From Halioglobus sp. (GTDB lineage: Bacteria > Pseudomonadota > Gammaproteobacteria > Pseudomonadales > Halieaceae), in assembly GCA_013214285.1 (NCBI GenBank), contig JABSPW010000002.1:1-64000 (forward strand): 64,000 nucleotides of DNA, given 5' to 3'. The notes under the pieces are model-generated. The model searched no databases. It saw nothing but the letters and a program-made list of their open reading frames with translations, and had not been told where the DNA came from. The stretch's first letter is position 1. The number at the start of each line of letters is the position of its first letter. A program made the translations under genes and the position numbers. Positions 1-17,292 of the stretch are shown here, in pieces.

Positions 1-701
1 CGCCGTGCCCGCCTGACCCACGCTGCAGGTCGGAACAGACGAAAACGATCTGCAGGACGCCAGTCAGTCGGCAGGCCAGTCTTCCAGGGCGGTGATTTGC
101 GCCGCGTCGTATGCAGCATTTTCGTTTCCTGTGTGAATTTGTCAAAGTCGTTCCACTCGTTCTCAAAGTAGCCGATGCGGTCCTCGTCCTCCTCGCGTAA
201 GCAGATCCATGGCTGATAGTCTTGAGTGAATTCGAACATGGCTTCGAATTTTTTTTGCACATCCCAGTGGGCCAACTCGCTGCATTCCAGTAGCATAACG
301 CTGCTGGCCTTGCATTTGTCGATCAAGCCTTTGGGCCCGGAGCGCATACGGCACATGATAGACTTTCCCTGCATGTCGCGGCTAAGCAGTTGCCAGATGT
401 CAGTAGCAGCGAAGATGTCTGGGTCTATCACGACCGCTCGCCCTGCGTACCCCATCAGCTTGGGTGGCATGAAGCGGGTTGGAGTGAAGGACTGCAGATC
501 GTCGTTCAGCCACTCTCGCTTGACGCCATCGCGCAGGTATTGTTTGCCTTCATGAGCGGCAAAGAACGGATAGTCTCGACTATCTATGATTTTCACGTCA
601 AACTTGTCGTTGTTCTGCGAGTAGCGGCGCAGAGCGTGCTGGGCTACGATGGCACCGGTTATCTGTTTATGATTTGTTTGGATAAAAACGCAGGCTTTCA
701 T
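1..701 (-). CDS. GT-A-like hypothetical protein, 3' end truncated by window edge; paralogue of 4739..5653
   Basis: Own reverse-complement translation from CAT at 699-701: MKACVFIQTNHKQITGAIVAQHALRRYSQNNDKFDVKIIDSRDYPFF...DDLQSFTPTRFMPPKLMGYAGRAVVIDPDIFAATDIWQLL...; open to position 1. Strongly similar along its length to the 4739..5653 product (DDLQSFTPLRFMPPKLMGWQGRAVLTDPDVFAVGDVFDLL). Absent from the ORF track because it runs off the edge. Confidence 0.85.
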   Translation of the reverse strand, partial: MKACVFIQTNHKQITGAIVAQHALRRYSQNNDKFDVKIIDSRDYPFFAAHEGKQYLRDGVKREWLNDDLQSFTPTRFMPPKLMGYAGRAVVIDPDIFAATDIWQLLSRDMQGKSIMCRMRSGPKGLIDKCKASSVMLLECSELAHWDVQKKFEAMFEFTQDYQPWICLREEDEDRIGYFENEWNDFDKFTQETKMLHTTRRKSPPWKTGLPTDWRPADRFRLFRPAAWVRRAR

Positions 702-838: not shown

Positions 839-1780
839 TTATTTGAATATACCTCGGCGGTACAGACCCCAGAAGAAGGACCACATGTAAAGCAGTGGTG
901 CTCGCCTGACTTTCTCGGGTATGACGATTTCTTGGCCAGAGTGGCGTTCGAGTTTCCACGCGATATAGTCTAAGCCGCCCTCGAATGTGAATAGCGCCTT
1001 GACCAGTCTGGCAATGGACAGCAGCTTGCCCAGGCCTCTTCGGAACAGCCACGATACCTTGGCCAGATAACGCTTTGGGCCAACGATTCGGCTCCGGTAA
1101 AGCCATTGGCCGTTTTGTTTATAAAGATCTATCGGCAGAGCGACGAGTTGCTGGGTTAGCTCAGCATAAAATTGCTTTGAAAGCTCTACCAGTTCATGCG
1201 CCCTTCCTGCCTGTTCAGTGCGCAGCTCCGTGGCATAACTTAAATTTAGAGAATTTTCCCAGAGAGTCTCGAGGTGTCCCTGCTTGGGTAGTGCTGGAAG
1301 TGTTCTTTGTAGCAGTGTGTCAGCTGCCTCCATAAGCGATTTTTCGATCCGGTTCCTGATCTGCTCATCACGTGCGTACAGGATAAACGTGGGCTGTGCG
1401 AAACGGCCCCAGATGTAAGACTCGTACCAGGCAGTCGAGCAGCCACGCTCAAAATCCCTCAGGGATATAACAGTCACTTTGCTGCGCAGGGTCTTTTCAT
1501 TGGTGTTGCCGGCGGGCGCTTGTCGCGCGTAAAACACATTGGGGGGCAGTAACCAGTTGACGCCTGCGAGCAGTCTGCTGCGGTAGGCTGTGCGATAGTT
1601 GTCGCAGATGAGATAAAGGTCCAGCAGACCATCGTAGATATCACCGCTGCGCAGACAGGAGCCGTATACCAAGGTGCAACAGATACTTCCATTGAGTCGT
1701 TGGTCAAGTTGCTGCAGTAATGCGGCGAGAGTCGGCTCCGCGATCGGATCGGGACCTGTGACTGGCGGGTAGGCGGTCAA
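839..1780 (-). CDS. Nucleotidyltransferase-like protein resembling Tam41-type phosphatidate cytidylyltransferases
   Basis: 313 aa; LVYGSCLRSGDIYDGLLDLYLICDNY, VNWLLPPNVFY, KVTVISLRDFERGCSTAWYESYIWGRFAQPTFIL resemble Tam41 family motifs (VYGSG..., ...LYLAGRLxKPV); start overlaps the DAG-kinase-like gene. Confidence 0.6.
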   Translation of the reverse strand: MTAYPPVTGPDPIAEPTLAALLQQLDQRLNGSICCTLVYGSCLRSGDIYDGLLDLYLICDNYRTAYRSRLLAGVNWLLPPNVFYARQAPAGNTNEKTLRSKVTVISLRDFERGCSTAWYESYIWGRFAQPTFILYARDEQIRNRIEKSLMEAADTLLQRTLPALPKQGHLETLWENSLNLSYATELRTEQAGRAHELVELSKQFYAELTQQLVALPIDLYKQNGQWLYRSRIVGPKRYLAKVSWLFRRGLGKLLSIARLVKALFTFEGGLDYIAWKLERHSGQEIVIPEKVRRAPLLYMWSFFWGLYRRGIFK

Positions 1781-2742
1781 AGCCTTAGAAACTCAAGTAT
1801 TGGACTGGTGCTAATGTCGACGTCACCCGCTACGTGCAGTAGCTCGCCATCCAGATTGAGGCTGCCTTCCATACTCAGATTTATCCGTCTCGCGTTATAG
1901 CTCTGGTAACCCGACGCGGGTACCGCATTACCATTGGGGCTGCCTCTGATGATGGACAGGAACGTTTTCGCAAACCTTGAGCAGCCCTGCTCCATTAACG
2001 TTATTCGGGCGCCGCCAGGTCCTTTACCCCAGAATGGACGCATGCCGAAAGACAAACGCTGCAGTGTGCTGATGGCGAGAATCAGAGTATCGTAGGTTAC
2101 CGCTACCTGCCCATCTAGAGATACGGAAATTGTCACATGGCGATTAAACGCGGGATCGTTGCGCAGAATACCCCAAACCGTCCGCAGTGTGCTCAACGCC
2201 AGGCTGAAATCACCTCGCAATCCGCGTGAGTGGACTGTGCGATGGGCATATCTCGTGCCTTGTATCACGGCACCACCGCCAAGAAACATTCCGTAGCGTG
2301 GCGGCTTGTCCTTGTGCGTGCTCACCCGCAGTAAAGCGCGCTGCACCACCTTGCCTCCGGTTCGGCGGTCGCTCGCGCTCCAATCGCAAAAGCGGCCCAC
2401 CGCCTTGCGCAATGAACCCCGCACGCCGACATCACCTGCCGTCATATTGGCTGTACCGCCCGGCAGTAAAGCGATCAGCGGCGGGTCCGGAAAGGCCGTG
2501 TGTTGAAGGAGAGCGGCAAGTATGGCCGCTGCAGTGCCGTCCCCGCCATTGATTGCCAGCACGGCAACGTTGCGAGCAGCCAGTTCTTGTAGCGCGTCTG
2601 GGATATCAGTGAGGTTTTCTGTGACGCGATGATGGATCGCCGGTGACTGCGCTATCCTCTGACGAATAGAGTCAAAGTGGTCACGATTGTGGCCGCTGGT
2701 CGGGTTGCTGATCAGACCCACCGGACCGGTGGGCGTACTCAT
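1777..2742 (-). CDS. Diacylglycerol kinase-family (YegS/LCB5-like) lipid kinase
   Basis: GLISNPTSGHNR, AINGGDGTAAAILAALL (GGDGT motif), LPGGTANMTA. Confidence 0.85.
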   Translation of the reverse strand: MSTPTGPVGLISNPTSGHNRDHFDSIRQRIAQSPAIHHRVTENLTDIPDALQELAARNVAVLAINGGDGTAAAILAALLQHTAFPDPPLIALLPGGTANMTAGDVGVRGSLRKAVGRFCDWSASDRRTGGKVVQRALLRVSTHKDKPPRYGMFLGGGAVIQGTRYAHRTVHSRGLRGDFSLALSTLRTVWGILRNDPAFNRHVTISVSLDGQVAVTYDTLILAISTLQRLSFGMRPFWGKGPGGARITLMEQGCSRFAKTFLSIIRGSPNGNAVPASGYQSYNARRINLSMEGSLNLDGELLHVAGDVDISTSPILEFLRL

Positions 2743-3590
2743 TTTTCAGCTGTCCTCATGGTGACAGCCTTCAGGTTTATGCCGGTTTTCCCAATGCGCG
2801 GTGCTTGCCCGAGGACCTGCACGGGTAGCTGCGACTCGCTGTCGAAGAAGATGATGATATCGCCAATGAGTCCTAGAAGGCTGAAGTCATTGTCATCAGA
2901 CAGCCTTCCCTCGGGGCTTACCTGTATAGAAACCGCGAGGGTCTCTCGCTCGCCGCTAACCTGGCTCCGTCCATCAACCTGATAATCGACGTCGATAGGA
3001 ATGCCGCGGCCGCTACTTAATTTCACCCGGTAAAAGTTCCGGTCAGTGAGGACCAGTACTTCCCGTGATTTGTTAGGCCCTAGCGACTGCAGTTTCTGGG
3101 CTATTAGCATTAGTAGATACGGTGACGTAATTACCGTGTCAGTCTTTGTTGCAGGGTAAGGAATTTCCTGCGTAGAGGATACAGGCCACTCCTCGGGCGG
3201 GAGCGCGGGATCCGAGGTTTGATTGCGTCGCTCTCGCAGCACGTACTGGTCCTTGTATTGGTAGGACTTCATGCGCTGGCCGCTACCGCGGCTGAGACGG
3301 GAGCGTTTGATCACCCGGTCGCTGCCTGCCTCAAACAGGATATTGATTTGCTCTGTGTTGTTGACTACCGAACTCAGCACGTCAAAATGCCACAGCGAGC
3401 GATTCTCCTCATCGGGAAAAAGCGTCAAAGTCGCCGTCGCTGTCGCCCAGAAAGCTTTTTCCTCAAACTGCAGTGACTGCCAGGGCGGCAGTGGGTGCCC
3501 TGTAGTGGGCTTTTCTGTTGCAGAGTGGGCGGCGCATGCCAGCAGCAGGCTGAGGCAGATGAAAATTATCCCGTCGTATAGCGTGGTCAT
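2739..3590 (-). CDS. Hypothetical secreted/lipoprotein-like protein
   Basis: N-terminal hydrophobic signal with LLACAAHS; overlaps downstream kinase start (operon). Confidence 0.65.
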   Translation of the reverse strand: MTTLYDGIIFICLSLLLACAAHSATEKPTTGHPLPPWQSLQFEEKAFWATATATLTLFPDEENRSLWHFDVLSSVVNNTEQINILFEAGSDRVIKRSRLSRGSGQRMKSYQYKDQYVLRERRNQTSDPALPPEEWPVSSTQEIPYPATKTDTVITSPYLLMLIAQKLQSLGPNKSREVLVLTDRNFYRVKLSSGRGIPIDVDYQVDGRSQVSGERETLAVSIQVSPEGRLSDDNDFSLLGLIGDIIIFFDSESQLPVQVLGQAPRIGKTGINLKAVTMRTAEK

Positions 3591-3815: not shown

Positions 3816-4742
3816 ATGCACATGATTATCAAGCGACTGATCAAGTGGTTGGTACGCGCGATTTCGGTATTTTTACCAGAGGAAAAAGCTCACGACCTGC
3901 AGCGCTGGCGGCGCGGCAAGGAGGAGTTCTGGAAGTACAATCACTGTCAGTATATTTTCGCATCCTACGGTAAGAGTGGGCGCACCTGGGTTCGGGTCAT
4001 GATCTCTCGTTATTTTCAGCTAGTCTATAAGCTGCCCGATAATATCTTGATGGGCTTCGATAACTACACGCGGCTGAATGGAGAGATTCCGAAGATATTC
4101 TTCACCCACGATAACTACCTGCGCGGCTATACGGGCAATGTCGATTCTAAGAAAGATTTCTACGACAAGAAAACGATCCTGCTGGTACGCAACCCCATTG
4201 ATGTCGCAGTCTCACAATTCCACCAGTGGAAGTACCGCATGCGACCTGAAAAGAAAGTCATGAACAACTATCCGGAGCACGATGCGAATATTTCAGTGTA
4301 CGATTTTGCCAAGCACGAGGGCCAAGGGCTCAATCATATAATCGACTTTATGAACAATTGGGCACGCGAGCTTCCCAATATCAAGGAACTACTTGTGGTG
4401 CGCTATGAGGATATGCGTTCTCATCCGCAAAGGGAAATGGCGCGCATTGTTGACTTTCTCGGCTTGGAGACGATTCCTGAATATCTGGACGATACAGCTG
4501 AGTTTGCTTCAGTGGCAAATCTTCGCAAGAAAGAGCAGGAGAATTACTTCTGGCGCAGCGGTAGTCGCGTGCAGGCTAAAGATGTCAACGACCCCAATAC
4601 CTATAAAGTACGCAAGGCCAAAGTCGGTGGCTATCGTGATTACTTTGACGATAAACAAGTAGCTGAACTTGCAGCCCTAGTAGACTCTCGATTGTTACCA
4701 CAGTTTGGTTATACCAGCGCAGAAATGGCGGAAGCGGTGTGA
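3816..4742 (+). CDS. Sulfotransferase-domain protein
   Basis: YGKSGRTWVRVMISRYF (PAPS 5'-phosphosulfate loop-like), LLVRNPIDVAVSQFHQWKYR, VVRYEDMRSHPQREMARIVDFLGL. Confidence 0.85.
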   Translation: MHMIIKRLIKWLVRAISVFLPEEKAHDLQRWRRGKEEFWKYNHCQYIFASYGKSGRTWVRVMISRYFQLVYKLPDNILMGFDNYTRLNGEIPKIFFTHDNYLRGYTGNVDSKKDFYDKKTILLVRNPIDVAVSQFHQWKYRMRPEKKVMNNYPEHDANISVYDFAKHEGQGLNHIIDFMNNWARELPNIKELLVVRYEDMRSHPQREMARIVDFLGLETIPEYLDDTAEFASVANLRKKEQENYFWRSGSRVQAKDVNDPNTYKVRKAKVGGYRDYFDDKQVAELAALVDSRLLPQFGYTSAEMAEAV

Positions 4743-5653
4743 ACAATCGCTGCGTATTTATCCATACAAACGAACGGCAATGGCTGGGCGCTCTGGTGGC
4801 GGAGTATTCGTTCCGCCGAAACTCAGCAAACTCCGACAAGTTTGATATCGCGTTTATACACACCCAAGATTACCCCTTCCTATCTGCGAAAGAGGGGCAT
4901 ACATTTCTGCGCGGTGGTACAAGCCGTGACTGGCATATGGACGACCTACAATCTTTTACTCCCTTGCGTTTCATGCCCCCAAAACTGATGGGCTGGCAAG
5001 GTAGGGCGGTCCTCACCGACCCGGATGTATTTGCCGTAGGTGATGTTTTTGATTTATTAGAGCGGGATATGCAAGGCGCCGCTGTGATGGGCCGACGGCG
5101 CTCTGCGAAGAAAGGCAAGTCACACCAGGTCGCGACCAGTGTCATGCTTATGGATTGTGCCAAGCTCAGGCATTGGGATGCTGAAGCGGATTTCGGTGCC
5201 TTGTTCCGTATGGAGCGTGATTACAAACAGTGGATGGTACTCGAATATGAAGATCCTGATACGGTCGGTTTCTTGGAAGATTACTGGAATGATTTCGATA
5301 ATCTCGACGCTGATACGCGTCTATTGCACAATACGAAACGCAAAACACAGCCATGGAAGACGGGTCTTCCAGTGGATTACACCCCTGCCGATAAGTTTAA
5401 AAACAGACCCTTGTTTGCCTCGGCGAACCGCCTGCGTGCAAAAGTTTTTGGCGAGTACGGTCTGCTTGGTCGATATAAGGAACACCCGGATCCACAGCAG
5501 GAAGCCTTCTTCTTTGGTTTGCTGAGGGAATGCCTCGAGATGGGACACGTTAGTGAAGAACTGTTGCAGCAGGAAATCAGTAAAAACCATGTGCGTCATG
5601 ATGCTTTTGAGGTATTAGACCGCACTTCAAAACTTAGCCGCAGCGCGGCGTGA
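4739..5653 (+). CDS. GT-A-like hypothetical protein (possible glycosyltransferase)
   Basis: 304 aa, GTG start overlapping upstream TGA; GRAVLTDPDVFAVGDVFDLL resembles a GT-A DxD region; paralogous to the minus-strand gene at 1..701. Confidence 0.7.
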   Translation: MNNRCVFIHTNERQWLGALVAEYSFRRNSANSDKFDIAFIHTQDYPFLSAKEGHTFLRGGTSRDWHMDDLQSFTPLRFMPPKLMGWQGRAVLTDPDVFAVGDVFDLLERDMQGAAVMGRRRSAKKGKSHQVATSVMLMDCAKLRHWDAEADFGALFRMERDYKQWMVLEYEDPDTVGFLEDYWNDFDNLDADTRLLHNTKRKTQPWKTGLPVDYTPADKFKNRPLFASANRLRAKVFGEYGLLGRYKEHPDPQQEAFFFGLLRECLEMGHVSEELLQQEISKNHVRHDAFEVLDRTSKLSRSAA

Positions 5654-6363
5654 AGTATCTGGAGATCGAAAAGCTGCGTGCACTGGGTACGACAGAGTTC
5701 ATGTCTGTTAAGCCTTATCCTTATTTCAATGAACCTCTCTTGACTAGCACAGGATATGCAGATTTACGCGAGACCTTGCCAGGACTGGACAATTTTGAGG
5801 CAATTATGGGCAAGGAACGCCGCGCAGGTCAGGCGCCCCATGATCGTTACTCCCTTGAATATACACGGGATTTGCAAGTACCAAAGCCCTGGCAGGAATT
5901 TATCGCGGAGCTCTGTTCGCAAGCCTACCGCGCCGAAATTGAACGCCTTCTGGGTGCTCGTAAAGTTGAGTTTCGTTTTCACTGGCACTATACGCCGACG
6001 GGTGCTGAGGTGTCCCCCCATTGCGATGCTCGGCGCGAGCATGGCTCTCATTTATTTTATTTCAATTCGGCCCGAGAGTGGGACCCCGCTTGGGGTGGTG
6101 CCACACTGGCTTTGGATGATGGTGGTCGCCTAGACTATAACTCCGCGCCGAATCTAGAGGAGTTCGACAATGTTATCGAGTTGGACTCCATGGGTAATTC
6201 CAGCGCTCTTATGTTAAGAACTGACCACTCCTGGCATGCTGTTAGGCCTATCCAATGCCCTGAAAACAAATTGCGCAAAGTTTTTATTGTGGTGGTCAAC
6301 CCGGACAGCTTGTTCTGGAAGGTGCGCGATCGGCTTATTGGCAAAAGTATTCAGAGATTTTAG
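5650..6363 (+). CDS. 2OG-Fe(II) oxygenase family protein
   Basis: FHWHYTPTGAEVSPHCDARREHGSHLFYFN...WGGATLAL...DHSWHAVRPI (HxD...H facial triad pattern). Confidence 0.75.
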   Translation: MKYLEIEKLRALGTTEFMSVKPYPYFNEPLLTSTGYADLRETLPGLDNFEAIMGKERRAGQAPHDRYSLEYTRDLQVPKPWQEFIAELCSQAYRAEIERLLGARKVEFRFHWHYTPTGAEVSPHCDARREHGSHLFYFNSAREWDPAWGGATLALDDGGRLDYNSAPNLEEFDNVIELDSMGNSSALMLRTDHSWHAVRPIQCPENKLRKVFIVVVNPDSLFWKVRDRLIGKSIQRF

Positions 6364-6367
6364 GCAA

Positions 6368-7051
6368 GTGGCGAATACCACGTACCCAAACATCGGTTCG
6401 CAGGATCTCCATTTGTGGCTGTGTTACCGCGGGTGTGTTGATAATTCCGACGCGTTCAAGCGCATTGTTCTCTCTCGTTATGCGGACAGCTCGCCACAGG
6501 CATTGCAATTCACAGAAGGCGAGCATGGTAAGCCTGAGCTGAGCGCGTCTTCAAGGCCACTTCATTTCAATATAAGCCACAGTGGCGATTGGCTGGCTTG
6601 TGCTGTAACCGTCGAGTCGCCGGTGGGAGTCGATCTTGAATGGTGTCGCCCTGAGCGCGCCTCGATCAGAGTGGCGCGCCGTTTCTTTCGAACAGATGAG
6701 GTGGCAGCGCTGGAGAAGAGTGATAGAGCTTCAATGGTGGAGCAGTTCTACGACTACTGGACCCTGAAGGAGGCGGCGGTCAAGGCGCGGGGTGGTGCAT
6801 TGGCGCCAGGACTATTCGATCATGGTTTCGCTATAGACTATCACCTTGCACGGCCGCACCGTGGGCTTATCACCGCGACGACAACGGATACGGCCCGCTA
6901 CATGCTGTTGGATCCGGTGGCGGGCTATCGAGCCGCGCTGTGCTGGACCGGCACCGCGGCGCTGCCGCGCTTAGGTTTGTTCGAGCTGAATGAGAAGGGT
7001 GCCGTCGAGCCCCTAAAAACTGTTTTGCGAGCATCTAGTCTGTGCGATTAA
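6368..7051 (+). CDS. 4'-phosphopantetheinyl transferase, Sfp type
   Basis: HFNISHSGDWLACAV, VGVDLEWCRP, FYDYWTLKEAAVKARG; probable GTG start at 6368 (ORF open from 6236). Confidence 0.88.
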   Translation: MANTTYPNIGSQDLHLWLCYRGCVDNSDAFKRIVLSRYADSSPQALQFTEGEHGKPELSASSRPLHFNISHSGDWLACAVTVESPVGVDLEWCRPERASIRVARRFFRTDEVAALEKSDRASMVEQFYDYWTLKEAAVKARGGALAPGLFDHGFAIDYHLARPHRGLITATTTDTARYMLLDPVAGYRAALCWTGTAALPRLGLFELNEKGAVEPLKTVLRASSLCD

Positions 7052-7104: not shown

Positions 7105-7809
7105 ATGATCATCGACCAGTACTACAACCAGCTTCAGGACAGTGTCAGCTTTACCCGCGAGCAGGCCAGCACGTTCGCAAAGAATATGGCCCAGGATTTC
7201 AATCCACTGCATGATGTGGATGCAAAACGTTTCTGTGTTCCTGGTGATCTCCTGTTTTCCGTGATTCTGGCCAGGTATGGCATCAGCCGGCATATGGCGT
7301 TTGTCTTCTCCGGTATGGTGGTGGATGGTATCGAACTGCTACTGCCGCAACCCTCCGAGGAGTTACAACTGCGAGATCGTGATGGGCGAGAGTATCTCAG
7401 CGTCAAACGGTCTGGGGACACCAGCGATGATGCGGCGCTCATACAAAATGTTACCCAAAGCTACGTGGAATTTTCTGGCCAGACCTTTCCGCACATACTG
7501 GTACCGCTGCTGACGGAAAAGAGTGTGATGATTAATCCCGACCGCCCTATTGTGATATACGCGAGTATGGTGATAGATCTCGACCGTCTGGATATTGAGC
7601 GGGTGGTACTGGAGCGAGACTATAACCAGCTTGAGGTTAATGGTAAACGTGGCAGCGTCGAACTTGCCTTCAATCTGTGTGCGGAGAATGAGGTGGTTGG
7701 ACGTGGTAGAAAACACATAGTACTTAGCGGCTTACGTGAATTCGACGAAAAAGCTAACCTGGATGCACTTGCCCGGTATGATGAGAGAAGGCGCAATCTA
7801 GCGGGCTGA
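7105..7809 (+). CDS. DUF3581-like protein
   Basis: SFTREQASTFAKNMAQDFNPLHDVDAKRFCVPGDLLFSVILARYG pattern recalled from DUF3581 family proteins. Confidence 0.7.
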   Translation: MIIDQYYNQLQDSVSFTREQASTFAKNMAQDFNPLHDVDAKRFCVPGDLLFSVILARYGISRHMAFVFSGMVVDGIELLLPQPSEELQLRDRDGREYLSVKRSGDTSDDAALIQNVTQSYVEFSGQTFPHILVPLLTEKSVMINPDRPIVIYASMVIDLDRLDIERVVLERDYNQLEVNGKRGSVELAFNLCAENEVVGRGRKHIVLSGLREFDEKANLDALARYDERRRNLAG

Positions 7810-11276: not shown

Positions 11277-12887
11277 ATGATTGCCACTACATTGCGCCGT
11301 ATTGTCTTTGCACTGGCCTGTTTGGCCATGGGATTTGGCTTGGCTTTTTTCTTGCTGATGCGCGGGTGTATTGCACAACCCGTTAAAGTTGCTGAGCTGG
11401 TGGATGGAGGGAGGTACGTGGGTGATGTCGTGGATGGTCGACTGGAAGGCGCTGGATTTATAGAGTGGCCAGGCGGTTCGCGTTATGCGGGCGATTTCCG
11501 CGACGGGCGGTTGCATGGAGACGGTCTTTATGAAGACAGTTTCGGCACACGCTATGAAGGCCAGTTTCGTGACGGTCAACTCGCGGGCAAAGCGTCTATC
11601 CACTATGGAGACGGCAGTCACTACGAGGGTGAGGCGCAAGCCTGGTTAATGCATGGCGAGGGAACCTATGTGACGGGCGATGATGAGTACCGGGGCACTT
11701 TTGTGGACGGAAAGCTCACCGGCAAGGGCGAGCACTTGCATCAGGGTGAGCTGGTGTATCGCGGTGATTTCAAGGATTGGCAGTACCACGGTCGCGGCAA
11801 ACGGCTATCGGGAGATGAATTCTGGCGCGGTGAGTTCGTGGACGGGTACCTGGTCAGCGGGGTCCACAGGTCTGGCAAGAGTGGGGCGCGCTACCGGGGA
11901 GATTTTTCCTTTGAGCGATACCATGGTGAGGGGAGGCTCGAGCGTGCTAACGGCGACCACTACGAAGGTGGCTTCCATTTTGGTGACTTTCACGGTCTCG
12001 GCACGATGAAGCTGGCGGCGCCTCGGGAGGGTATTACTGAGTACAGTGGAACGTGGCGCAATGGTAGGCTGATGCAGTCCGAAGTCAGTGCTTTTGTCGA
12101 GAACTATAAGCCAGACGTTGAAAAAGCGCTCTACGGCGAGACTGCCCTGCTTGAAGAAGAGCTGCTTACCCTGGTACCCGGGGATCCGGACACGCCGGAA
12201 GTGTACTTCCTCGGCATAGCCGGTGATGGTACGCAGCGTGTCTTTAGCCGTGAGGTCAGTGCCTTCCGTGACCATCTGGATCGGCTGTCATCATTGCAGG
12301 AACGGCAGATCGCCCTGCTCAATGACCGCATCCTGATGGGAAAACAGCCAATGGCGACGCGCACCAGTATTGCGCGCGCACTTGCAATGCTTGGCGAGCG
12401 CATGAACACGGAAGACGATGTTCTGGTGCTTTATATAACAAGTCATGGCAGTGACAATCACGAAATTTCATTGCGAAATGCGCATCTTGAACTCGAGGGT
12501 CTTCCTGCCGATGTGTTAGCGGAGATGCTACTTGATAGTGGTATTCGTTGGCGTGTGATTTTTGTTTCTGCTTGCTATTCGGGCGGCTTTATCGACGCTC
12601 TGGCCGATGATGAGAGTCTGATCATGACCGCCGCGGCGGCGGATCGTACCTCTTTTGGTTGTTCAGATCAGGCAGAGACAACGTACTTTGGTCGGGCATT
12701 GCTCGATAGTTTGAGTCGTTCCGCCGATCCGGCGCAGGTCTATAGCCTGCTGCGCGAGGCGATCGCGGAGCGAGAGGCGAAGGAGGCACTGAGTCCCTCC
12801 GAACCTCAGTTTTTTCTGGGCCCAAAAATGGCGGAGAAGCTGGCGCGACATGGTATAGGCGTGTTCCGCCCGTCTGACCCGCCGTAG
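11277..12887 (+). CDS. MORN-repeat protein with C-terminal legumain/caspase-like (C13-type) peptidase domain
   Basis: Repeated YxGDFxDGxxHGxGxY units; then DVLVLYITSHGSDNHEISL ... VIFVSACYSGGFIDAL (His/Cys dyad motifs). Confidence 0.82.
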   Translation: MIATTLRRIVFALACLAMGFGLAFFLLMRGCIAQPVKVAELVDGGRYVGDVVDGRLEGAGFIEWPGGSRYAGDFRDGRLHGDGLYEDSFGTRYEGQFRDGQLAGKASIHYGDGSHYEGEAQAWLMHGEGTYVTGDDEYRGTFVDGKLTGKGEHLHQGELVYRGDFKDWQYHGRGKRLSGDEFWRGEFVDGYLVSGVHRSGKSGARYRGDFSFERYHGEGRLERANGDHYEGGFHFGDFHGLGTMKLAAPREGITEYSGTWRNGRLMQSEVSAFVENYKPDVEKALYGETALLEEELLTLVPGDPDTPEVYFLGIAGDGTQRVFSREVSAFRDHLDRLSSLQERQIALLNDRILMGKQPMATRTSIARALAMLGERMNTEDDVLVLYITSHGSDNHEISLRNAHLELEGLPADVLAEMLLDSGIRWRVIFVSACYSGGFIDALADDESLIMTAAAADRTSFGCSDQAETTYFGRALLDSLSRSADPAQVYSLLREAIAEREAKEALSPSEPQFFLGPKMAEKLARHGIGVFRPSDPP

Positions 12888-13991: not shown

Positions 13992-14537
13992 CTAGGCCGG
14001 CGTCTCCCTTCCCAGTGCGGCCGAGGCCGGCGGGACAATCACACGCATTAACCGTCGGCCAATGGCGGATCGCCCTTCGTAAAAAGCCAGGGCGCTCATG
14101 TTTTTACGGTGATAACATAGATGATTTGCTAGGACAAAAGCGAAGCGCTCGTTGCTTCTGCGCAGGGCAATCATATATGCAGAATAGCCGAGGAAAGGTA
14201 ATACCGAAAATAGAAACACCGGTAGGGAATGCACGGCTGCGCGTGCTTTGTTGCCCCGTAGGGATTCAATGACTCTCCACGCCACTACCCACAGCGGCCT
14301 CACCATGGATCCAATGGGCAGCGGAATCATGGTGAGGTAGCGGAAGCCGCCGATGGCCAGGTGCCCGCCAAGGTGTTTGAGGATATACCCGGCCCCCTCC
14401 AGATCCGATTTGATTTGACCTGCGATCTCCCTTTCTTCGCCCGCAGAAATAATGTGTTCAGTATGCATCCGCTCTACAGAGCGATATAGAGATGCCGCAT
14501 CCAAGAGTTCACGCCGGTCTGACAATAGTCTCACCAT
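13992..14537 (-). CDS. Hypothetical membrane protein
   Basis: 181 aa ORF with hydrophobic segment AAVHSLPVFLFSVLPFLGYSAYMIAL. Confidence 0.55.
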   Translation of the reverse strand: MVRLLSDRRELLDAASLYRSVERMHTEHIISAGEEREIAGQIKSDLEGAGYILKHLGGHLAIGGFRYLTMIPLPIGSMVRPLWVVAWRVIESLRGNKARAAVHSLPVFLFSVLPFLGYSAYMIALRRSNERFAFVLANHLCYHRKNMSALAFYEGRSAIGRRLMRVIVPPASAALGRETPA

Positions 14538-15059
14538 ATACTCATGCCGTGTCGGCTAAAATCTGGCTATGTCTGCCGACCTGACATCTGCACAACAGGT
14601 TTATCATATAGGTAACTATCGTCCTCGCATCTGTTGTAGCGTTTTTCTGCACGAACTCGACGTCTTACATCAAGTGTTTCATCCGTCGTATTTTGCTGGC
14701 AACACCTTCCGCACAGAATTTCTCTCGCCCGCTGCCTTACGTTCAGTGATCCGCGGGTTGGAACGCCAGGACACCAGTTTATCCTTGCTGAATTAGGTGA
14801 GCAATGTGCGCTACATTCTGAAATACGACGCGCCGTTTTATCCCCGGGCATTGATACCCCGCACGATTTCCTGTCCCAGGAAATCGCGTATCCTGCGCTG
14901 TGTTGATTTACTTCCTCCTGGCTGCCGGCTCCAGGGACGCAAAGACGGATCCCTCGTCCGTCTCAGTAGTAGACGACTATACAGGGCCTTGGCCGCCGAA
15001 TTAAACTATAGTATGCAGGGCAGCGATTGAGTCCGCAGGGAGCAGTGCGGAGGTATTTC

Positions 15060-15926
15060 ATGATTGAAATCATACCATCGAAACAGTCGTGTGGAGCAAC
15101 CGTACGCGGGGTAGATCTGTCTCTCGATTTGGAGGCTACCACCGTGCAGACTCTGCGCGCCGCTTGGATGGAGCATCACGTCCTGGCTTTTCCTGACCAG
15201 CGGCTATCGGATACAGATCTGGAACGGTTTGTATCGTGCTTCGGTGCGTTTGGCACCGAACCGTTTTTTGATACGATAACCGGAAGTAAACACGTAGTGG
15301 CCTTGACGCGCAAAGCGGATGAAACAGCCCCCCTGTTTGCAGACAACTGGCATTCTGACTGGAGTTTCCTGCCGCAGCCGCCATTGGGCACCTGCCTTTA
15401 CAGTCTCGTGATTCCGCCGGTTGGTGGTGATACGGGCTTCACTAATCAACATCAGGCGCTGGAAGAGATGCCGTTGGCGCTGCGAGCACAAATTGAAGGC
15501 CGTACGGCACTGCACTCCGCCGTGGCTGCCTATGCCCCGGATGGCATGTATGGTGAAAGAGACAGGGCCGCAGGCCGCAGCATGGCGATACGCTTTTCAG
15601 AAGAGGCGCGAAAAGTCCATGGGCACCCATTTGTTTCCAGGCATCCTGAAAATGGCAGAGAGACGCTACTGGGCTGTTTCGGCTATATAATTGGTATTGA
15701 GGGTATGCCAGACGATGAAGCGCTAGGCCTATTGCTAGAGCTACACGACTGGCAGACCCATGAGGCCTTCCAATATGCGCACTCCTGGCAGGAGGATATG
15801 CTGGTTATCTGGGATAATCGTAGTGTATTGCATAAGGCTTACGGGGGCTATGATGGTTACGACCGTATTCTTCACCGCGTCACTGTAGCGGTGGATTCCA
15901 AGAAATTTCTCCAGCCTGCGACCTGA
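15060..15926 (+). CDS. TauD/TfdA family dioxygenase
   Basis: ATVRGVDLS, HHVLAFPDQ, NWHSDWSFLPQPPLGTCLYSLVIPPVGGDTGFTNQHQALEEMP, LVIWDNRSVLHKA. Confidence 0.88.
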   Translation: MIEIIPSKQSCGATVRGVDLSLDLEATTVQTLRAAWMEHHVLAFPDQRLSDTDLERFVSCFGAFGTEPFFDTITGSKHVVALTRKADETAPLFADNWHSDWSFLPQPPLGTCLYSLVIPPVGGDTGFTNQHQALEEMPLALRAQIEGRTALHSAVAAYAPDGMYGERDRAAGRSMAIRFSEEARKVHGHPFVSRHPENGRETLLGCFGYIIGIEGMPDDEALGLLLELHDWQTHEAFQYAHSWQEDMLVIWDNRSVLHKAYGGYDGYDRILHRVTVAVDSKKFLQPAT

Positions 15927-15930
15927 CGCT

Positions 15931-17292
15931 GTGATGAAAAAAGTAGCTCATGCAACAGTCAATCCCCTCAAATCGCTGAACCTGCTGTCCAAAGTAGATA
16001 TCGAAGGGCTCACCTCTAGCGATGGAGAACTGCTGTCGGTTTTTCGTCAATGCGCGCTGGCGATTCTCAATACCGATACAGAGCAGGATGACGCGACGCA
16101 GATTTCGACGGATTACTCTGACTTTGATATCAAACTTGTGCCCCAACCTCGTGGTTTGAGACTAGATATAGTCAATGCGCCGCCTCAGTCCTTCGTCGAT
16201 GGCAAGATGATTCGTGGTATTCAGGAGCATCTATTTTCCGCCCTGCGCGATATTGTTTATACGGATTTTAAAATCATTGCAACACAGTCGCAGCCTCTTG
16301 ATTCCGTACAGACGACGAATACCGTTTTTCGAATTCTCCGCAATGCCGGAATTGTGCGTCCGGACCAGCCACCTAATCTTACAGTTTGTTGGGGTGGGCA
16401 TTCGATTTCTCGCGAGGAGTATGACTACGCGAAGCGCGTCGGCTACGAACTGGGCTTGCGCGGACTGAATATTGTCACCGGCTGTGGGATTGGGGCAATG
16501 AAAGGTCCGATGAAAGGCGCTGCCGTCGGTCATGCCAAGCAGCAGAACAAGGATGGCCGATACATCGGCATCAGCGAGCCGGGTATCATTGCGTCCGAGT
16601 CGCCAAACGCTATTGTCAATGAATTGGTCATCATGCCAGATATTGAGAAGCGACTGGAAGCGTTTGTTCGACTAGCGCACGCCGTGGTTGTTTTCCCTGG
16701 TGGAGTTGGCACCGTTGAGGAGATTCTCTATTTGCTCAGTATCCTCATGCACCCGGGAAATCGTGAGTCGATTCCCTTGGTTATGGCTGGTCCGGAGTCA
16801 TCCCGCGTATATTTCGAAGTATTAGAGCGATTCTTGCGAGATTGCCTGGGTAAGGCAGTACGAGATTTCTACACGGTCATACTGGGTTCACCGGATGAAG
16901 TGGGTCATTTCGTCAGACGCGCGACAGACAAAGTGCATGCGCGCCGTCGTTCCTCTCAGCAGGCCTACTATTTTAATTGGGAACTACAGGTGGGCTGCGA
17001 TTTGCAAGAACCTTTCCTGCCGACCCATGAGAATATGGCAAATCTGCGGTTGGATAGTGGGGCGCCCGGGTATCAGCTGGCCAGCGCCTTGCGATGCGCG
17101 TTTTCGGGAGTAGTCGCCGGCAATGTCAAAGCCTATGGTATTGAGCAGGTGCGGAAGAATGGTCCTTATAAACTGATGGGTGACAGGAAATTGCTGGATA
17201 GTATGGACCGCTTGCTGTGTTTTCTGGTCGAGGAGCAGCGCATGAAGATTAACGCTGCGAAGTATCAACCCTGCTATCAGTTGGGTGCTTGA
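15931..17292 (+). CDS. ppnN: Nucleotide 5'-monophosphate nucleosidase PpnN/YgdH (LOG family)
   Basis: KGAAVGHAKQQNKDGRYIGISEPGIIASESPNAIVNELVIMPDIEKRLEAFVRLAHAVVVFPGGVGTVEEILYLLSILMHPGN (PGGxGTxxE). Confidence 0.88.
   Translation: MMKKVAHATVNPLKSLNLLSKVDIEGLTSSDGELLSVFRQCALAILNTDTEQDDATQISTDYSDFDIKLVPQPRGLRLDIVNAPPQSFVDGKMIRGIQEHLFSALRDIVYTDFKIIATQSQPLDSVQTTNTVFRILRNAGIVRPDQPPNLTVCWGGHSISREEYDYAKRVGYELGLRGLNIVTGCGIGAMKGPMKGAAVGHAKQQNKDGRYIGISEPGIIASESPNAIVNELVIMPDIEKRLEAFVRLAHAVVVFPGGVGTVEEILYLLSILMHPGNRESIPLVMAGPESSRVYFEVLERFLRDCLGKAVRDFYTVILGSPDEVGHFVRRATDKVHARRRSSQQAYYFNWELQVGCDLQEPFLPTHENMANLRLDSGAPGYQLASALRCAFSGVVAGNVKAYGIEQVRKNGPYKLMGDRKLLDSMDRLLCFLVEEQRMKINAAKYQPCYQLGA

Follow-up and report, generated by a model that had tools for sequence, protein, structure and literature searches.

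Gene organization at the left end of the window

The window, i.e., the whole stretch of 64,000 nucleotides of Halioglobus sp. DNA analysed here, begins with a small group of genes belonging mostly to the minus strand, among which a nucleotidyltransferase-like gene and a lipid kinase gene form an overlapping pair. The features considered here are the following:

3 to 701, minus strand: partial gene running off the window edge, member of an unannotated family with paralogues nearby in relatives
839 to 1780, minus strand: Tam41-related nucleotidyltransferase, probable CpgC (313 aa, TTG start)
1777 to 2742, minus strand: lipid kinase of the DAGK/LCB5 family, probable CpgB-type ceramide kinase (321 aa, ATG start)
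2739 to 3590, minus strand: secreted beta-rich protein with a DUF1849-like fold (283 aa), upstream of the kinase
3816 to 4742, plus strand: sulfotransferase (Sulfotransfer_1, 81 bits), an operon neighbour conserved in Halieaceae

The open reading frames of the Tam41-like protein and the kinase overlap by 4 bases (TTGA), and a similar 4-base stop/start overlap links the kinase to the 283-aa open reading frame. Owing to these overlaps at both junctions, the three genes likely form a co-translated unit, in agreement with an earlier note on this DNA, which had described two overlapping genes and a third gene in the same apparent operon.

The 283-aa protein looks secreted, with a signal peptide-like N-terminus. 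It finds no match in Pfam, and its beta-rich AlphaFold model (pLDDT 90) resembles in Foldseek the Brucella DUF1849 structure 6ntr (E 7e-5). The gene is kept upstream of cpgB in Halieaceae, and a periplasmic envelope role would fit. The earlier description of this product as secreted or lipoprotein-like holds for its first half only, the lipoprotein assignment being rejected because the cysteine is absent in the Halieaceae relatives.

Other genes surround this unit. The sulfotransferase keeps its position in relatives and is one of four Halieaceae-conserved sulfotransferase-family genes of the locus, the other three occurring at positions 11486-12415, 14292-15203 and 15146-16138 of locus L124 of the same genome; a role in sulfated lipid head groups or lipid tailoring is possible. 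The partial gene at the window edge belongs, together with 4739-5653 and L124 19673-19999, to a family of paralogues starting with FIQTNHKQ or FIHTNERQ and devoid of any match in Pfam. Downstream of the sulfotransferase come a 2OG-Fe(II) oxygenase-like gene (5650-6363, below cut-off), a phosphopantetheinyl transferase (6236-7051) and a DUF3581 gene (7105-7809), the first and last of which hold their place in relatives. Farther away, positions 40135-63069 hold the gene of an AMP-binding/ACP protein and, after it, five very large open reading frames (895 to 2191 aa), which together resemble a cluster for the synthesis of a polyketide or nonribosomal peptide, Pfam having been run on the first protein only.

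The Tam41-like protein

Taken alone, the 313-aa protein matches the Pfam family Tam41_Mmp37 (PF09139) with an E-value of 2e-4 and 21.2 bits for a curated cut-off of 24, and a single-sequence phmmer search of the PDB returns nothing. A PF09139 search of the Halioglobus genome likewise gave no match, but it was equally silent in the control genomes and is thus uninformative. Among 20 relatives of the protein, 11 are matched by PF09139 at E<=1, the best at 3.9e-11, and a profile built from these 20 sequences retrieves the Tam41 crystal chains 6ig2/6ig4 of S. pombe (E 1.3e-8) as the sole significant match in the PDB. The AlphaFold model (pLDDT 94.4) points to the same family, since its five best Foldseek matches in the PDB are all Tam41, either from S. 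pombe or from a Firmicutes bacterium (7ecd), with TM scores (query) of 0.48-0.52 as compared to 0.26-0.30 for the next family; aminoglycoside nucleotidyltransferases rank well behind Tam41. The resemblance to Tam41 recognized in the earlier note is therefore borne out, and the placement in a family outside Tam41, which that note named as a test, did not occur.

In addition to the common nucleotidyltransferase fold, the protein shares with Tam41 (6ig2/6ig4, 7ecd) the YGS motif with a single Asp, the Lys of a KYxV-S strand and a GRF..P motif. Asp54, the single acidic residue of the motif, is invariant in 47 sequences and is followed by LY without a second acid; Lys101, Arg126 and Gln129 are equally invariant. 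Tam41 itself has been described as possessing only one of the three acids usual in nucleotidyltransferases (PMC11646218). The protein nevertheless departs from Tam41 by an identity of about 15% in the structure alignment, by its own score below the Pfam cut-off, and by its linkage to ceramide synthesis rather than cardiolipin synthesis.

The lipid kinase

The kinase encoded at 1777-2742 contains the DAGK_cat domain of Pfam (51.9 bits, cut-off 23.6) and the GGDGT motif, as expected from its previous assignment to the YegS/DAGK family. It differs from the YegS/BmrU-type lipid kinases, with which it shares these features, by scores far under the equivalog or subfamily cut-offs of NCBIfam (for YegS, 38 bits where 284 are required; 34.9 vs 118.65 bits in the other comparison), and by a GGT[AT]NM motif, here GGTANM, which replaces the usual GTxND and is common to kinases adjoining CpgC. 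It is a probable ceramide kinase of the CpgB type. The only CpgB with proven ceramide kinase activity is that of Caulobacter, which also phosphorylates diacylglycerol in vitro (PMC10331486).

Distribution and association with ceramide genes

Among 369 genomes of the class, 19 in addition to that of Halioglobus contain a relative of the Tam41-like gene, the genomes with the gene spanning 16 genera. Both the Tam41-like gene and the bacterial ceramide synthase bCerS were found in 19 of the 369 genomes, the former only in 1, the latter only in 5 and neither in 344, with bCerS counted at E 1e-30 or better, a cut which removes four weak matches. The Fisher p-value of this co-occurrence (2.8e-26) overstates the evidence, since related genomes are not independent. 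The single genome with the Tam41-like gene only is 62% complete. An alignment-based scan of genome_contigs yielded at least 567 Tam41-like places, and the scan with the single Tam41-like protein yielded no relative. Relatives are distributed among Gammaproteobacteria, Alphaproteobacteria, Nitrosomonas-type bacteria, Desulfobacterota, Nitrospirota and Calditrichota.

When reference genes were mapped onto 99 loci, the kinase directly adjoined the Tam41-like gene in 81 of them, and in 75 the examined stretch also contained one or more further genes of the sphingolipid cluster. The recurring order, with gene names assigned from order and families, consists of bCerS, CofC-like, LptF, LptG, phosphoesterase, CpgA, CpgB and CpgC, with Spt, AcpR, CerR and AasR nearby. 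The succession CpgA-CpgB-CpgC is found in many loci, e.g., in Pseudomonas luteola (L110) and Nitrosomonas europaea (L109).

The probable sphingolipid cluster of the Halioglobus genome

The genome which contains the window is a draft MAG, 93% complete and distributed over 299 contigs, one of which (C255) harbours Spt, with 57% identity to a cluster Spt, and bCerS, with 47%. The same contig carries CofC-like, phosphoesterase, murA and AcpR genes, two ELM1-like proteins, an MsbA-like transporter, LptG and LptF, three sulfotransferases and an oxygenase. These names were set by gene order and family and subsequently checked by Pfam, where bCerS found no match, so that it is identified by homology and synteny. 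Neither CerR nor a dedicated AasR turned up in the contigs of this genome that were examined. In three close Halieaceae relatives (loci L042, L043 and L046 of genomes G370, G371 and G373), the genes orthologous to those of C255 and of the window's left end lie together on a single uninterrupted stretch, with the kinase/Tam41-like pair about 15 kb from serine palmitoyltransferase (about 15.7 kb from CpgC to Spt in G370). Judging from these relatives, the window contig (C245) would join C255 in one cluster. The cluster was likely split by an assembly break in the unannotated gene family, because the start of C245 and the end of C255 both fall inside copies of it.

The murA gene (L124 3524-4771) adjoins spt and keeps this position in relatives; it was rejected as a dedicated MurA since the genome has no other murA match, which makes a housekeeping role probable. 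Genes of the Mito_fiss_Elm1 type occur in or near the cluster, two in the Halioglobus genome (L124 6328-7371 and 12403-13512) and a third in relatives (L135 12006-13115). An ELM1-like protein of Acinetobacter is a suspected glycosyltransferase of LOS core synthesis (PMC10936431) and, by analogy, glycosylated sphingolipids are possible at this locus.

Comparison with the Caulobacter system

In Caulobacter, CpgA is required for CPG2 and dispensable for CPG. The region CC_1168-CC_1152 contains the recurring sphingolipid gene set; P. luteola lacks orthologues of only four of the cluster genes, and these four include neither CC_1161 nor CC_1160 (PMC11324152). According to the same paper, CC_1161 (CpgC) carries an InterPro domain of the CDP-DAG-synthase type, and an NDP-activated ceramide has been suggested. 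CpgC is required for the conversion of ceramide-1-phosphate into CPG by a mechanism stated as unidentified (PMC12275187; PMC13228409).

The window pair resembles CpgB-CpgC (CC_1160, CC_1161) of Caulobacter crescentus by the adjacency of the kinase and Tam41-like genes, by the CDP-DAG-synthase-type domain reported for CC_1161, and by the common cluster partners bCerS, Spt, AcpR, CofC-like, phosphoesterase and LptF2/LptG2. The Tam41-like gene, next to a CpgB-type kinase in a genome equipped with Spt and bCerS, is a probable orthologue of CpgC, an assignment reached through the P. luteola locus, CC_1161 being known by description. Unlike Caulobacter, the Halieaceae locus has its ceramide genes at some distance from the pair in the relatives, associates the pair with the secreted DUF1849-fold protein, sulfotransferases, ELM1-like proteins and an MsbA-like transporter, and has no CpgA found at or around the pair. 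A search for CpgA gave no relative in the Halioglobus genome, and eight relatives of the Halieaceae type yielded no more than weak, generic matches, whereas the same search found it in the Nitrosomonas and Nitrosospira controls. Since CpgA is dispensable for CPG in Caulobacter, CpgB and CpgC alone are compatible with a CPG-type lipid. From the lack of a detected CpgA, a head group simpler than that of Caulobacter is expected, either mono-substituted or modified by the sulfotransferases and ELM1-like proteins of the locus, rather than ceramide diphosphoglycerate.

Proposed pathway and alternative readings

With good confidence, the pair is regarded as the cpgB-cpgC arm of a Halieaceae-like sphingolipid locus, in which CpgC probably activates ceramide-1-phosphate with CTP. 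From homology, Spt, AcpR and bCerS of contig C255 would make ceramide. As suggested by its fold and its position in the pathway, the Tam41-like protein would transfer CMP from CTP to ceramide-1-phosphate, giving CDP-ceramide and pyrophosphate, a step modelled on the use of phosphatidate by Tam41. A further transferase would put a small acceptor in the place of CMP (in Caulobacter, this acceptor is glycerate), and the finished lipid would presumably be exported by a dedicated LptF/LptG-like pair. CTP-dependent activation by CpgC is probable, and the fold evidence supports the published suggestion of an NDP-activated ceramide, at the level of the fold and not as a proof of the substrate. A text search of the literature for CDP-ceramide in bacteria gave no paper. 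Only two CDP-alcohol phosphotransferases were found in the Halioglobus genome: the first is pgsA-like and adjoins uvrC, and the second was rejected as the acceptor enzyme, its neighbours being devoid of sphingolipid genes.

It is rather unlikely that the Tam41-like protein acts on ceramide-1-phosphate other than as a cytidylyltransferase, by joining glycerate or another group directly or by using another nucleotide or CDP-linked donor. The attachment of glycerate to ceramide-1-phosphate by CC_1161, proposed earlier and discussed in PMC11324152, agrees with such a role, as does the fact that no separate acceptor transferase was found in the window genome, but the fold and the conserved single acid match CTP-binding Tam41, and direct condensation is considered unfavourable on energetic grounds (PMC11324152). 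The module advanced in the earlier note, namely a DAG kinase and a Tam41-type CDP-DAG synthase which would salvage DAG via PA into CDP-DAG and so add another route to phospholipids, is very improbable: it accords with the family relations of both proteins (DAGK_cat; Tam41), with the in vitro activity of CpgB on DAG (PMC10331486) and with a Firmicutes Tam41 which makes CDP-DAG, as cited in PMC11646218, but the genome has an ordinary cdsA, which that note had proposed to look for (contig C24, E 4.9e-53), the genes strongly co-occur and cluster with ceramide genes and match cpgB-cpgC, deletion of cpgB leaves PA unchanged in Caulobacter (PMC10331486), and loss of cpgC abolishes CPG (PMC11324152).

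Significance

The kinase and Tam41-like pair is probably a further instance of the known cpgB-cpgC type, informative on the enzymatic step of CpgC, whose route from ceramide-1-phosphate to ceramide phosphoglycerate was stated as unknown in papers of 2025 and 2026. Owing to the relation with Tam41 at the fold level and to the clustering and co-occurrence with ceramide genes, the formation of CDP-ceramide becomes directly testable. The spread of the relatives suggests that more bacteria synthesize phosphosphingolipids than the few species named to date. More tentatively, and with somewhat less than even confidence, the Tam41-like protein may make CDP-ceramide, the Tam41 fold may serve the synthesis of sphingolipid head groups across several phyla, and the Halieaceae, without CpgA, may produce a phosphosphingolipid of another kind, possibly with sulfate or sugar groups.
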